Assembly (NCBI RefSeq): GCF_015644665.1 | Contig: NZ_JADOBQ010000001.1 | Location: 930,001 to 994,000 of the forward strand | Source: Roseobacter sp. MH60115 | GTDB taxonomy: Bacteria > Pseudomonadota > Alphaproteobacteria > Rhodobacterales > Rhodobacteraceae | Reading direction: 5' to 3' | DNA: 64,000 bases | In this document: positions 15,821 through 29,522 of the stretch, one piece after another | How positions within the stretch are numbered: position 1 is the first letter of the stretch | How the letters are laid out: each line of letters begins with the position of its first letter | Translations under genes and position numbers: made by a program | Notes under the pieces: generated by a model | Told to the model about the DNA's origin: nothing | The model's database searches: none | The model's input: only the letters and a program-made list of their open reading frames with translations

Positions 15821-15910
15821 TGGCGGAGACGAAGGGATTCGAACCCTCGAGACCCTTCCGGGCCTACTCCCTTAGCAGGGGAGCGCCTTCGACCACTCGG
15901 CCACGTCTCC
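15821..15910 (-). tRNA. tRNA-Ser(GCU)
   Basis: 90 nt on the minus strand. The acceptor arm GGAGACG pairs with CGTCTCC, followed by G and an encoded CCA. The anticodon loop CTGCTAA gives GCU (DNA GCT), decoding AGC/AGU. A long variable arm (TAGGCCCGGAAGGGTCT) and the T loop GGTTCGAATCC confirm a class II serine tRNA. Confidence 0.97.
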
Positions 15911-16355: not shown

Positions 16356-16622
16356 ATGTGCCGACTTAAGACATCGACCTCACTGGTCCTGTTGTTAGCT
16401 GCAATTCCATCTTTCTCTGCAGCACATTCCACTCCCACCGGGCTGGATGTTCCTCAAGCCACGCAACGTCTCCAAGACGACCGAAACCTGTTGCGGGTGC
16501 GGTTGGAGACGGCTGCGGCCAAGCTGCCGGATGCCTCCGATGATCTGTCAGTCGCGCAATGGAATAATTGGAGCAACTGGTCAAACCTTTGGAACAACTG
16601 GAACAACTGGGCAAACTGGTAA
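16356..16622 (+). CDS. RiPP precursor with C-terminal Trp-X-Asn repeats
   Basis: 88 residues. Residues 1-24 look like a Sec signal peptide (basic start, TSLVLLLAAIPSFSAA). A polar middle (DVPQATQRLQDDRNLLRVRLETAAAKLPDASDDL) serves as leader. The last 20 residues are six Trp-X-Asn triads: WNN, WSN, WSN, one Leu, WNN, WNN, WAN, and a terminal Trp (Trp at 69, 72, 75, 79, 82, 85, 88). Trp-X-Asn is the substrate pattern for radical SAM enzymes that bridge an aromatic side chain to the third residue (three-residue cyclophanes, 'triceptides'). The layout recalls GrrA-type precursors, but the core has no Gly. The maturase is encoded immediately downstream. Confidence 0.85.
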   Translation: MCRLKTSTSLVLLLAAIPSFSAAHSTPTGLDVPQATQRLQDDRNLLRVRLETAAAKLPDASDDLSVAQWNNWSNWSNLWNNWNNWANW

Positions 16623-17824
16623 AGTCGCGGCAAACGCCGTCACTTCTGGTTCTGCAGCCGACGTCGTACTGTAATCTCGATTGCAGTTATTGTTATCTGC
16701 AGCATCGCGATGACCGTGCGCGGATGTCGGATGAGACGTTGCGTGCGATTGCCCGAAACATCATTGCCCCCTGTCCACCGGACGAGCGGCCCCTGGTGGT
16801 GTGGCACGGCGGCGAGCCGATGACGCTGCCTGCGGCCTGGTACGCGCAGGCTTTTGCTCTGCTGGAAGAGGAGGGCGGTGGGCCACCGCTGCGCCATGCC
16901 TTTCAGACCAATGCGGTGGGGGTGAACGCCTCATGGATCGACCTGTGGCGCACGTGGAAGGTCAACATCGGTGTCAGTCTTGATGGCCCTGCGGACCTGC
17001 ACGACAGCCGCCGACGGACACGGCGCGGAAAAGGGAGCCATGCCCTCGCTATGCGGGGTGTGTCCCGACTGCAGGAGGCTGGCCTGCCGTTCCATGTCAT
17101 AACCGTACTCACGGCGCAGAGCCTGTCGCGCGCCGACGACATCTATGATTTCTTCACCGGGCAAGGCATTCGAAATGTCGCCTTCAACGTTGAAGAGGAA
17201 GAAGGGCAGGAGGGGGGCAGCAGCCTGCTTGCGACCTCTCAGGTGGCAGCGGGCTACACGTCCTTTCTGAAGCAGTTCCTGCACCGGTGTGCCGTGGACC
17301 CCGAGCCTTTCCATTGCCGCGAAATCGAGGGGGTCAAGGGGCTGCTCGCCGCGCCGCATGACCAACGGGCTGAGAATTGGCAGGTGGACCCGTTTCGGAT
17401 CGTGACGGTCGGTGTGCAGGGCGGGCTGTCGACCTTTTCGCCGGAACTCATTGGTGCCACGGCCCCGGACTATGATGACTTTGTCTTTGGAAACGTTCGA
17501 GACGGCGGCGTGCAGAGCATGCGGGACAGCGATGCCTTTCGACGGGCGAGCGACGATATCGCCAGGGGCGTTGCGGCCTGTGCCGCTGAATGCCGTTTTT
17601 TCGAGGTCTGCGGCGGTGGTGCCCCCGCCAACAAGTATTTCGAGCTGGGCCGGTTCGACGGCACCGAAACGCTGCACTGCAGGCTGACCCGTCAAATCAC
17701 GCTCGAAACCGTCCTTGATGCCCTTGACGCCGGGGTTTTTGACCATTCATCGCAAGAAGGATTTCTCCATGACCGATCAGGATCCGCCGACCAACGCGCA
17801 AGAACAGGATCTGGGCAGCGATAG
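16568..17824 (+). CDS. Radical SAM/SPASM RiPP maturase (GrrM/XyeB-like)
   Basis: 418 residues with TTG 16568, or 411 with TTG 16589; both starts lie inside the precursor gene in another frame. No ATG, GTG or TTG occurs between the precursor stop and the catalytic motif. The [4Fe-4S]/SAM motif is CxxxCxxC (C35, C39, C42 in CNLDCSYCY). The radical SAM core continues with VVWHGGEPMTL, NIGVSLDGPADLHD and an RGKGSHALAMRGV stretch. A C-terminal SPASM-like Cys cluster runs from about 338 (CAAECRFFEVCGGGAPANKY) to HC near 380. It would crosslink the Trp-X-Asn triads of the precursor. Its end overlaps the next gene by 56 bp. Confidence 0.92.
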   Translation: MEQLVKPLEQLEQLGKLVKSRQTPSLLVLQPTSYCNLDCSYCYLQHRDDRARMSDETLRAIARNIIAPCPPDERPLVVWHGGEPMTLPAAWYAQAFALLEEEGGGPPLRHAFQTNAVGVNASWIDLWRTWKVNIGVSLDGPADLHDSRRRTRRGKGSHALAMRGVSRLQEAGLPFHVITVLTAQSLSRADDIYDFFTGQGIRNVAFNVEEEEGQEGGSSLLATSQVAAGYTSFLKQFLHRCAVDPEPFHCREIEGVKGLLAAPHDQRAENWQVDPFRIVTVGVQGGLSTFSPELIGATAPDYDDFVFGNVRDGGVQSMRDSDAFRRASDDIARGVAACAAECRFFEVCGGGAPANKYFELGRFDGTETLHCRLTRQITLETVLDALDAGVFDHSSQEGFLHDRSGSADQRARTGSGQR

Positions 17825-20800
17825 CGTCGTCACTGGCGCTGGAGAAAAACCCAAGGAGCCGGAGGAGGCCCCAAAGCGCTCGGTCTTGTCCAGGCTCTAC
17901 GGCACGCTGGCGGGAGTTGTCCGGCCAACCCTGCCGGGTGTTATTCTGGTCTGCGTGATCGTCTTGATCATGGCGGTCTGGCAAGGGGAATGGACGCAAT
18001 GGCCCGACAAGATCCGCAAGATGGTCACGGCCGGTCGGGCCGCTGTCTCTGATCCTGTCTTGCCGGGGGTTCTGTCGATTGAGCCGCCACAGCTTTATAC
18101 CCGCGAACGTCTGGTCAACGACCGCTTCCGGCAGGCCAACTGGCTGGAAGAGCAGCTGGCGAAAACCAAGGAGGAACAGACCGTCACCCCGGTGTCGCGC
18201 GAGCAGCGCTCGCAGAGCCTGGTTGCGACGCTGATGGGGGCGACCCAGGAGCCGCAAGACCAGAACCAGACGACTGCCGCAGATCCCGTACCCGTCAGTG
18301 CGCTGCAGCAGTTGGGCGCGGTTGACAAGATGCGCCTGCGTCTGCGGACCGATCTGATGGATACGTTGCTGGATGACGGCCATGATCTTGAAGGCAACAC
18401 ACTCTACCGGCTGAACTTTGACGCGGTCGTCATGCCTCTGATCAACCGGCGCAGCTATCCAGGCACGGCGGTTTTCATCATCGAGGCCCGCGATCCCTAT
18501 GCCGAACTCGAAGAGAAATGTGTCGGCACGGAAGACGATGCCGTGTGCACCGACGAAAAGGCGATGATCGAGCAAAGGCGCATTGTCGATGACGTGGAGC
18601 TGCTGCGCGGGTGGCAGCGGGAAATCCAGCAGTTCCTGACAAAGGTGCTGGATGCCCGGATCGAGGCCTTCCGCCAGAACGGCCGCCTGCACAATCCCGT
18701 CGACCCGAAGGAAAACATTGCGCTGGACTGGTTCTTGCGGCGCGAGCTGATTTCAGCGTTCTTTGGCGCGGTTGTCTACGACCCGGAGGTGTTGTCGATA
18801 TGCCGCGAACGGCGTTTGGTGCCTGCAAAAATAACCAGTTCCAATCAGTTGGCGCCGGGTTGGGCGAGCGCCTGTCAGAACTGGATTGCCGAGACCATCG
18901 GTTTTGACTGGCGTACGGACAACCATGTGCCGACCGTGAATGCCTCTGACGCCTTGGCGCCGATGGTGCAGGCGGGTTTTCGCAAGGCGATCCGGCGCGC
19001 GCATTACATTAACACCGTGCTGGCCATTGAAGGGCAGATGTCCGTGCAAAAGCTGCAAAACAGCGCGCGGCCTGCACAGGCCAGCCAGCAGAACACAACC
19101 GGTGGCGACGGGTCGTCTGACGGCAGCATTCAGTGTGCCGCCGCGCAGCAAGGCGGCGCGCTCATCGATTGCCCGCAACAGGCTGTGCAAGAAGTGAAAT
19201 CGCCCCCCCCGATGGACGTGGGTTCCATGCCGCAGGACGAGGATTACAAGCAGGCGCTGGTGCGTCTGATCTCGGTCTGGCAGGGCATGGAGGAGTGGGG
19301 CCGCGAGGTGCAATTCGGTGCGATCATGCAGGCAGCCTTTGATCCTCAAACGCGCGAGACGGCGACGGTCCCGGCGAAAAGCCAGGTCGCTGTGCCTGTC
19401 AAATCCCGGCTGCTGGCGGCGCTTTCCAAGTTCGATGCTCATCTGCCGTCTGAAACAGATATCACCAGCCTGCGCAAAAGACTGCGGGAGGAGGGCACAC
19501 AGAATTTCGTGCTGGTCCGTGGCCAGGCGACAATCCATCCGCAGCTGCGCTCATCCGTCGAGCAATGCCCTGAACGCACCGACTATACCGCGCAATCGGT
19601 CGTGGGGGCCTACAAATGCCTCTTCATGCGCAGCGAAGCGGGCCGCGCCTCCAACGCGTTGATATCGCATTTCCTGCTGGCGCGCTTGCAAGAAGAACTG
19701 CCTGTCTACGACCGTGAAAGCCGGTCCATTCGGGATTTTCTGGACATTTCGCTGAAAGGATGCAGCACCACGGGATGCCGCATCCAGGTGTCGCAATACA
19801 AGGACCTGCCTGGCAATGAAATCTTTGGTGCCCGCGAGGCGGGGTTCCTGCCAGCCGTTTCGAGCCGTGCCAACAGAGCGCGCGGCGAGATTATCCCCGC
19901 CCGCGTCTATGATGTGATCGACGAGTTCAAGGTCGGCGGTGGTGCTGTCTGGGCCGGGGGCAACTGGAAACAGCGTCTGACGGCGAATTGCATTGCCAAG
20001 AACGTCAGGATGCACACGATCCGGCTGACGGATGCGAAACTGAAAACCGCTCTGCAGATCGTGGATCAGAACCTGTCGCCGGATCAGACATCAAAAGGGT
20101 GCGAAAAGCGCGCGCTTTCCTACGAAACCCGTGAACGGCTCGAAATGACCAAATACTGTCTCGACCTTGCGAGACGCCATGCCAATCATCACGAGGCGCG
20201 GACCGAGATTTACCTGTCGTGCATGCTGCGCGACTGGATCAACACGCAGCGCAGCGACGTGACGGTCTACGCCGTAAGCCCGCGCGCCGGGGACGGGGAC
20301 GATCTGGCGCACCGGATCGACGCGGCATCGGCTCAGATTGGTGCCGCTCTGCCTGCCAATGCGCCGCTGAGCGGTCAGATGAACCTCGCGGATGTCAGAA
20401 GCAAGGAGCAGGTCATCAGCAACCCGCGGGTGATCGGCTTCAGCCATTTGCCGGGGTCTGATCAGCAGGACCGTAACAGGGGCAAGAGCTCTACGGATCG
20501 GGCCACATTCGGATGGGCCATCCGGCCGCGACGGCTGAGCACAACGGGCGGGTATCAGTCCAGCCACCACCGTCTGTCTGCGGTGATCAGCCTGCCCAGT
20601 TGGTGGAAGCGGGTGGATTTCGATGTCCGGGCCTGCTGGGTGCAGCCCCCACATGTCAATTCGCCCGCGGTTGATTTCACCAAACTCTGTCGGGGCGATC
20701 CCGCTGCCGCGTCAGGTCAAACGGATGTGATCATGCCGTCGATGCGGCAATTCCGCCGTCACTTTGAAATCAAACTGCCACGGCGGGTCGAAGAGATCAC

Positions 20801-21293
20801 CGCGCGGTTCAATTTCGATTTCATCCGCGCGCCGTATTACTACCGGGAGTTCGATCAGTATGTTCAGCGCTATCCGCAAATTCTGTCGCTTGAGGCGGGC
20901 CGGCCGGGCAAGTTGGTCTTGCAGGGTGAGCGTCTGTGGCGCGGCACGGTTGTCACGGTCAACAACCAGAGCGCGGACAGCATTGTGGTCCTGCCGGACA
21001 TGAAAGGGGTGGTGGCCCATTTCAAATGCATTCATCCGCCCGACGGGATGTTTCACTTCAAGAAGTTCGACGAGAATTTGAAGATTGCCGACGCGGCGCG
21101 CGCTGCCGCGGCAAAGCAGGATGATGGGTCGGGAGGGCCACCGCCCTCCAATGCGCCCGGACGCGCGCCAAGCGTGCCGCTCTTTGTCTGGACCTCGGAA
21201 GGCGGGACAACGGACAAGCAGGTCGAAGTCCATCCCTTCGTGCAGCGCTGGACTGACGAGAGACCTTGCTGGCTGGACGCGCCGGAGCCTTAG
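17769..21293 (+). CDS. Large membrane-anchored periplasmic protein of the RiPP operon, unknown
   Basis: 1174 residues from ATG 17769, preceded by AAGAAGGATTTCTCC and lying inside the end of the maturase gene. A polar cytoplasmic N-terminus with basic residues (KRSVLSRLYG) leads to one membrane helix (about 54-71, PGVILVCVIVLIMAVW), so the remaining 1100 residues should be periplasmic. That part is Cys-rich (for example KCVGTEDDAVC, GCSTTGCR, CEKR...YC). It has a Gln/Gly-rich linker near 445-470 and a late beta-rich segment (GRPGKLVLQGERLWRGTVV). I recognise no enzyme, protease or transporter motif. Operon position suggests handling, sensing or display of the exported peptide; this is inference. 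Confidence 0.85.
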   Translation: MTDQDPPTNAQEQDLGSDSVVTGAGEKPKEPEEAPKRSVLSRLYGTLAGVVRPTLPGVILVCVIVLIMAVWQGEWTQWPDKIRKMVTAGRAAVSDPVLPGVLSIEPPQLYTRERLVNDRFRQANWLEEQLAKTKEEQTVTPVSREQRSQSLVATLMGATQEPQDQNQTTAADPVPVSALQQLGAVDKMRLRLRTDLMDTLLDDGHDLEGNTLYRLNFDAVVMPLINRRSYPGTAVFIIEARDPYAELEEKCVGTEDDAVCTDEKAMIEQRRIVDDVELLRGWQREIQQFLTKVLDARIEAFRQNGRLHNPVDPKENIALDWFLRRELISAFFGAVVYDPEVLSICRERRLVPAKITSSNQLAPGWASACQNWIAETIGFDWRTDNHVPTVNASDALAPMVQAGFRKAIRRAHYINTVLAIEGQMSVQKLQNSARPAQASQQNTTGGDGSSDGSIQCAAAQQGGALIDCPQQAVQEVKSPPPMDVGSMPQDEDYKQALVRLISVWQGMEEWGREVQFGAIMQAAFDPQTRETATVPAKSQVAVPVKSRLLAALSKFDAHLPSETDITSLRKRLREEGTQNFVLVRGQATIHPQLRSSVEQCPERTDYTAQSVVGAYKCLFMRSEAGRASNALISHFLLARLQEELPVYDRESRSIRDFLDISLKGCSTTGCRIQVSQYKDLPGNEIFGAREAGFLPAVSSRANRARGEIIPARVYDVIDEFKVGGGAVWAGGNWKQRLTANCIAKNVRMHTIRLTDAKLKTALQIVDQNLSPDQTSKGCEKRALSYETRERLEMTKYCLDLARRHANHHEARTEIYLSCMLRDWINTQRSDVTVYAVSPRAGDGDDLAHRIDAASAQIGAALPANAPLSGQMNLADVRSKEQVISNPRVIGFSHLPGSDQQDRNRGKSSTDRATFGWAIRPRRLSTTGGYQSSHHRLSAVISLPSWWKRVDFDVRACWVQPPHVNSPAVDFTKLCRGDPAAASGQTDVIMPSMRQFRRHFEIKLPRRVEEITARFNFDFIRAPYYYREFDQYVQRYPQILSLEAGRPGKLVLQGERLWRGTVVTVNNQSADSIVVLPDMKGVVAHFKCIHPPDGMFHFKKFDENLKIADAARAAAAKQDDGSGGPPPSNAPGRAPSVPLFVWTSEGGTTDKQVEVHPFVQRWTDERPCWLDAPEP

Positions 21294-29447: not shown

Positions 29448-29522
29448 TGGCTCCGGCGGTAGGGATCGAACCTACGACCAATTGATTAACAGTCAACTGC
29501 TCTACCGCTGAGCTACGCCGGA
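29448..29522 (-). tRNA. tRNA-Asn(GUU)
   Basis: 75 nt on the minus strand. TCCGGCG pairs with CGCCGGA, followed by G and an encoded CCA. The D arm is GCTCAGCGGTAGAGC; the anticodon loop CTGTTAA gives GUU; the T arm is CGTAGGTTCGATCCCTACC. All four stems close. Confidence 0.97.

Follow-up and report, generated by a model that had tools for sequence, protein, structure and literature searches.

A probable triceptide operon with a large, conserved, membrane-anchored partner protein in Roseobacter sp. MH60115

The window analysed here, a stretch of 64,000 nucleotides from Roseobacter sp. MH60115, carries at positions 16356-21293 three plus-strand genes, each of which overlaps the next. The gene of an 88-residue precursor (16356..16622, +) shares 55 nt with that of a radical SAM/SPASM maturase of the GrrM/OscB family (16568..17824, +), which in turn shares 56 nt with the gene of a large, membrane-anchored and probably extracytoplasmic partner protein (17769..21293, +). 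These coordinates and frames bear out the three overlapping genes described in the initial annotation, and the large protein, counted from its ATG, indeed has 1174 residues. Comparison with a near relative, L031, gave low dN/dS values for the precursor (0.051/0.312), the maturase (0.061/0.597) and the large protein (0.095/0.771), overlapping stretches being included in these figures. Comparison with L032 was similar, with dN well below dS for all three genes. The conserved set contains neither an exporter nor a peptidase gene.

A promoter scan returned one site against 1.2 expected, and terminator-like sites numbered 11 against 6.0 expected. Matches between the flanks and G266, the sole genome of the same genus among those compared, are scattered over several contigs. 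A tRNA-Ser gene (15821-15910) stands just upstream of the three genes, as it does in L031 and L032. A tRNA-Asn gene (29448-29522) follows about 8 kb downstream, against only about 1 kb in those two loci, and sugar-ABC-transporter-like genes occupy the interval in the window.

The C-terminal end of the precursor reads AQWNNWSNWSNLWNNWNNWANW, that is, six Trp-X-Asn triads followed by a final Trp, and the translation is thus as first annotated. The core, a predicted substrate for up to six cyclophanes, extends from AQW to ANW (16554..16619, +), beginning at residue 67 of the 88, with a leader before it. The N-terminus resembles a signal peptide, being hydrophobic at about residues 10-20 and having SAA at 21-23. 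When the last 24 residues were shuffled, six WxN were reached in 305 of 100,000 trials, so that the number of triads is partly explained by a core rich in W and N. Conservation of the core is stronger evidence than this statistic. At 21 of 21 distinct loci, namely the window, L023, L025 and 18 loci (including L041) from the large-protein scan described below, a precursor whose core starts with [A/S]QW and continues with aromatic-X-Asn (or Ser) repeats is encoded upstream of the maturase. Both the precursor frame, judged by the low dN/dS against L031 and L032, and the aromatic-X-Asn precursor type are therefore conserved among those relatives of the maturase that have the large protein; loss of either had been named beforehand as evidence against the annotation.

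Within the family, most cores consist mainly of WxN, with runs of Phe-Pro-Asn in L041 and L047; that of L034 is degenerate, mostly W-x-S with one WxN. The remark that the core has no Gly is right for the window and wrong for the family, Gly being present in 12 of the 19 precursor cores checked; Cys occurs in none of the 19. By a simple script, 17 of 19 precursors have an N-terminus that resembles a signal peptide and carries an AxA-like site. For the remaining two, L040 and L047, the script took a late start, and the longer frames contain a hydrophobic stretch. Of the 19 precursors scanned, all but L047 have a loose R[L/I/M/V] element ahead of the core, and it may, on our own reading, be what the maturase reads. 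The window precursor matched no Pfam or NCBIfam model at E up to 10, nor, at the same limit, the GrrA/OscA1 model TIGR04260, against which the GrrA of L075 scores 53.6 (cut-off 31).

The maturase gene comprises 418 codons and begins with a TTG that falls within the core coding region. The maturase frame of L031 and L032 offers an ATG that lies 63 nt upstream of the precursor's end; the corresponding ATG of the window (16559-16570) is followed by an in-frame stop, and the window maturase must therefore start at TTG. Its translation contains CNLDCSYC, in agreement with the intact CxxxCxxC claimed for it, and the radical SAM motif was found by the tree script in all 29 maturases used. The protein scores 376.8 bits against TIGR04261 (GrrM/OscB; cut-off 310), covering positions 1-362 of the 363 of the model, and also matches PF04055. 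AmcB (NF041718), likewise a family of triceptide maturases, comes second with 311.3 bits; this lies below the cut-off of 425, and AmcB identity was accordingly rejected. PADLOC gave only weak matches to the maturase, viperin models first. According to a review (PMC11002830), OscB links Trp through C7 with the beta carbon of an Asn or Asp at i+2, and Phe through C4 with that of an Asn at the same spacing. Given TIGR04261 membership and this chemistry, Trp-X-Asn rings are an expected product and their chemistry is already known. The family score, above the curated cut-off, and the OscB precedent thus support the earlier assignment to the cyclophane (triceptide) maturases.

The large protein is harder to place. 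Motifs PQLYTRERLVN, LDDxHD and a WTSEG-type motif are conserved in it; across a 42-row alignment (L048 and L054 left out), TRERL, LDDxHD and WTSEG-type motifs are kept, the last ones being nearly, but not fully, invariant. No Pfam or NCBIfam family matches above its curated cut-off. Weak matches do occur: the window protein itself matches NF009527 with E 0.077 (12 of 461 bits), one of the 42 members matches the TSP_NTD protease model (E 0.019), and two of the 42 match the TIG model PF01833 (best E 0.025), the window protein not being among the PF01833 matches listed. By sequence, the best match in the PDB has E 0.65 (ribosomal proteins), a protein search against plasmids and phages found no match, and PADLOC returned nothing.

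AlphaFold2 modelled the window protein with pLDDT 69.7 and pTM 0.69, 293 of its 1174 residues being under pLDDT 50, and the short homolog L051 with pLDDT 75.4 and pTM 0.74. The models begin with N-terminal helices and continue with helices and beta-sandwiches. We read the N-terminal helices as including a membrane anchor, and the protein is then probably extracytoplasmic. Two distant members, L070 and L071, look lipoprotein-anchored by eye, and L073 perhaps does too. Among the best 50 rows of each Foldseek search, Ig-like domains prevail, several of them from bacterial adhesins, and Ig/Rel-type folds are included; these similarities are weak, the best TMq among the rows listed being 0.13, and no row listed for the window model has E under 0.001. 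Two multi-domain glycosidases also figure among the rows listed, 7nit and, with the window model, 1qho; together with the weak protease- and hydrolase-type matches, they leave room for an enzyme role of the large protein.

Of 394 genomes from the same family, seven have the large protein and seven the maturase; in five the two genes lie side by side. In G330 and G126 the maturase goes with unlike precursors and the large protein is missing, and in G106 and G078 the large protein is present and the maturase missing. At wider rank, the maturase family was found in 5 of 385 genomes (class) and 2 of 398 (phylum), the window's own genome included. A scan of a species-genome collection with the large-protein alignment yielded 43 loci, a set that relied on two peptide patterns and so misses members without those patterns; four loci found otherwise (L024, L026, L029 and L030) duplicate L064, L062, L046 and L049 and were counted once. 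The maturase is adjacent in 18 of the 43 and not in the other 25, several of which lie on short contigs. In L042, L043 and L047, a gap of 533-688 bases lies between the maturase and the open frame of the large protein. The third gene, whose conservation among relatives had been proposed as a check, thus accompanies the maturase at 21 distinct loci. The maturase aside, neighbour families of at least 90 residues recur in at most 7 of the 43 loci; judged by eye, those that recur resemble ordinary sensor kinases, transporters and repeat proteins, and their distances vary. Transposase-like frames occur near GrrM-type genes in L025 and L077 (by eye) and in L079 (annotated IS630), hinting at mobility of these genes.

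The loci without a maturase have another small neighbour. By a strict pattern, 16 of the 25 maturase-less loci encode a small protein with a four-Cys motif at its end, no more than 300 bases from the open frame of the large gene, and none of the 18 maturase loci does; elsewhere in the 760,480 bases of the 43 loci the pattern did not occur. A looser pattern adds L053 and L054, bringing the count to 18 of 25, and gives chance-like matches in the triceptide loci L025, L031, L036 and L042, at least 1.3 kb away and none ending near the C-terminus. Neither pattern found the Cys peptide in the maturase-less loci L039, L048, L049, L061, L070, L071 and L073; the contig of L049 stops 310 bases past the large gene, and a profile search does recover a Cys peptide there. 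Many of the four-Cys peptides begin with a signal-like stretch. Their genes lie mostly downstream of the large gene or convergent with it, not in the slot of the triceptide precursor. An AQ-like dipeptide stands ahead of the Trp cores and ahead of many of the four-Cys motifs alike; this may be chance or a shared recognition site.

The alternation was also followed genome-wide, in the genomes of 10 of the 25 maturase-less loci and 11 of the 21 triceptide loci, at most 150 candidates being scored per genome. A Cys-peptide model had one match in each of the 10 genomes of the first kind, which it has by construction, having been built from peptides of maturase-less loci, and none in the 11 triceptide genomes. 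Among the 394 family genomes (11 candidates scored in each), at least three match this model. Two of them, G078 and G106, are the genomes in which a short large protein occurs and the maturase is missing; the third, G258, matches weakly, and no large protein was found within 12 kb of its Cys-peptide relative.

Two further observations concern the maturase-less loci. In L045, L051, L060, L061, L066 and L067, another small four-Cys peptide, likewise secreted-like, stops at or close to the point where the short-type large gene begins, an arrangement suggestive of translational coupling. The pattern used is loose and matches 53 times across the 43 loci; a seventh match upstream of a large gene, in L052, looks like chance and was set aside. 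L053 and L054, binned as Treponema denticola and Chthoniobacter, are short contigs with equal match figures and nearly the same Cys peptide, and their assignments are probably binning errors.

The two partner types were also compared on trees, with exact placements unsure on account of many long branches. On the large-protein tree (41 rows, the fragment L069 dropped), the labels of the two partner types need 5 changes against a mean of 17.7 when shuffled. The types are thus largely separate, and the triceptide rows L042, L043 and L047 group on the Cys side of the midpoint-rooted drawing. On the maturase tree (29 rows), presence of the large protein needs 3 changes against a shuffled mean of 7.2, and maturases with and without it do not form two clean clades.

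The closest known systems are the GrrM/OscB triceptides. They share with the window a maturase family matched above cut-off and a Trp/Phe-X-Asn motif, which OscB cross-links; the window differs in a precursor unmatched by TIGR04260 and in a core without Gly. Trp-X-Asn triads beside a GrrM gene are no novelty in themselves. They are present in the GrrA of L075 and on a conjugative plasmid of Phaeobacter piscinae (NZ_CP010716.1; L078, 5091-7293), where a WxN-rich precursor lies directly before grrM, as in the window. There, unlike in the window, the neighbour of grrM is a secreted-like protein of 220 residues; the large protein is not annotated in the 13 kb viewed, the gene table of the plasmid being incomplete. 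Matches to grrM also occur in three P. inhibens plasmids. The other GrrM genes viewed likewise have neighbours unlike the conserved large anchored partner. In L028 (4485-5207, minus strand) an SBP_bac_3 solute-binding protein, which we take to be GrrP, adjoins a GrrM-family gene and the large protein is absent. The initial annotation knew of no described system with this combination of genes. The maturase chemistry and Trp-X-Asn beside GrrM are both known kinds. What is new here is the third gene, of a membrane-anchored, probably extracytoplasmic family of large proteins with predicted Ig-like folds and no curated domain. A literature search did not find the combination, the partner protein or the alternation described, and a mention in the primary triceptide papers is possible.

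From these data it can be proposed, as a probable though not assured reading, that the three genes form an operon for a Sec-exported triceptide with a dedicated, anchored envelope partner, and that a four-Cys peptide may fill the role of the triceptide elsewhere. The GrrM/OscB-type enzyme would recognise the leader in the cytosol and link every Trp, or Phe in the case of some relatives, with the Asn at i+2, giving up to six consecutive rings. The precursor would then leave by the general Sec pathway by means of its own signal peptide, which would explain a set that has no exporter or peptidase gene. A precedent for Sec export of a RiPP precursor is offered by the bufferins, for which the authors of PMC12452194 call a signal peptide highly unusual among bacterial RiPP precursors. 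As described there, bufferins have a signal peptide in place of the usual leader, to which the signal-like N-terminus of the window precursor may correspond, and share with the window an enzyme gene right after the precursor gene; they differ in being Cys peptides, modified by MNIO enzymes and copper-sequestering, whereas the window has a radical SAM enzyme and a Trp-Asn core without Cys. Outside the inner membrane, the rigid peptide would work with the large anchored protein and most likely bind it. In the sister branch a secreted-like four-Cys peptide, presumably stapled by disulphides, holds a place nearby. The occurrence of two peptide types beside one protein family suggests that stapled peptides of two kinds can take the same role. 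The large protein would then serve such a small rigid peptide, whose cross-link chemistry can differ, as receptor, scaffold or display partner. It should be noted that adjacency of the peptide and large-protein genes is no proof of binding. A more specific form of the proposal is put forward tentatively, as possible rather than probable: the large protein would be a receptor or display platform dependent on an exported peptide that is small and rigid, and two unrelated cross-link chemistries would have come to meet this need in evolution, four-Cys peptides in one branch and radical-SAM Trp/Phe-Asn cyclophanes in the other.

Other explanations have to be weighed against the operon with a dedicated envelope partner. 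The peptide might be an ordinary diffusible triceptide, for instance an antimicrobial, with the large protein serving as an immunity or export-assisting factor. The gene overlaps, which suggest co-expression, would suit it, and two radical-SAM cyclophane RiPPs, darobactin (PMC9055067) and dynobactin (PMC11002830), are antibiotics. We consider it unlikely, given that beyond the maturase no neighbour family of at least 90 residues is found in more than 7 of the 43 loci, and that in 25 of the 43 the large protein has no adjacent maturase and would be needless for immunity to a triceptide.

The pairing of the large protein with two unrelated, small, exported-like peptides could also be expected of a processing protease or a foldase that cuts or shapes the exported Cys or Trp-Asn peptides, and the conserved set holds no other candidate for such a function. 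The weak matches to TSP_NTD (1 of 42 members) and NF009527 point the same way; none of them comes near a curated cut-off, however, PADLOC gives nothing for the large protein, and the Foldseek rows listed are mainly Ig-like, which makes this role distinctly improbable. Slightly less credible again is that the maturase performs a chemistry other than ring formation on these cores, or that the set is a remnant without a product. Confinement of the window maturase to a TTG start, unlike the usable ATG of its near relatives, would fit a remnant, but low dN/dS across all three genes and a full-length match to a family for which Trp-Asn and Phe-Asn chemistry has been shown speak against both possibilities.

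To our knowledge, the roles of most triceptides are unknown, and a conserved, anchored partner gives a handle on the possible function of GrrM-type peptides. The precursors, with their signal-like N-termini, raise the question of how a radical SAM enzyme can complete its modifications before the peptide is exported. The alternation of partners poses another question, which can be tested: whether a single protein family binds two peptides whose staples are unrelated. If the receptor or display platform proposed above proves true, the triceptide would be a built-in part of an envelope complex rather than a diffusible natural product.
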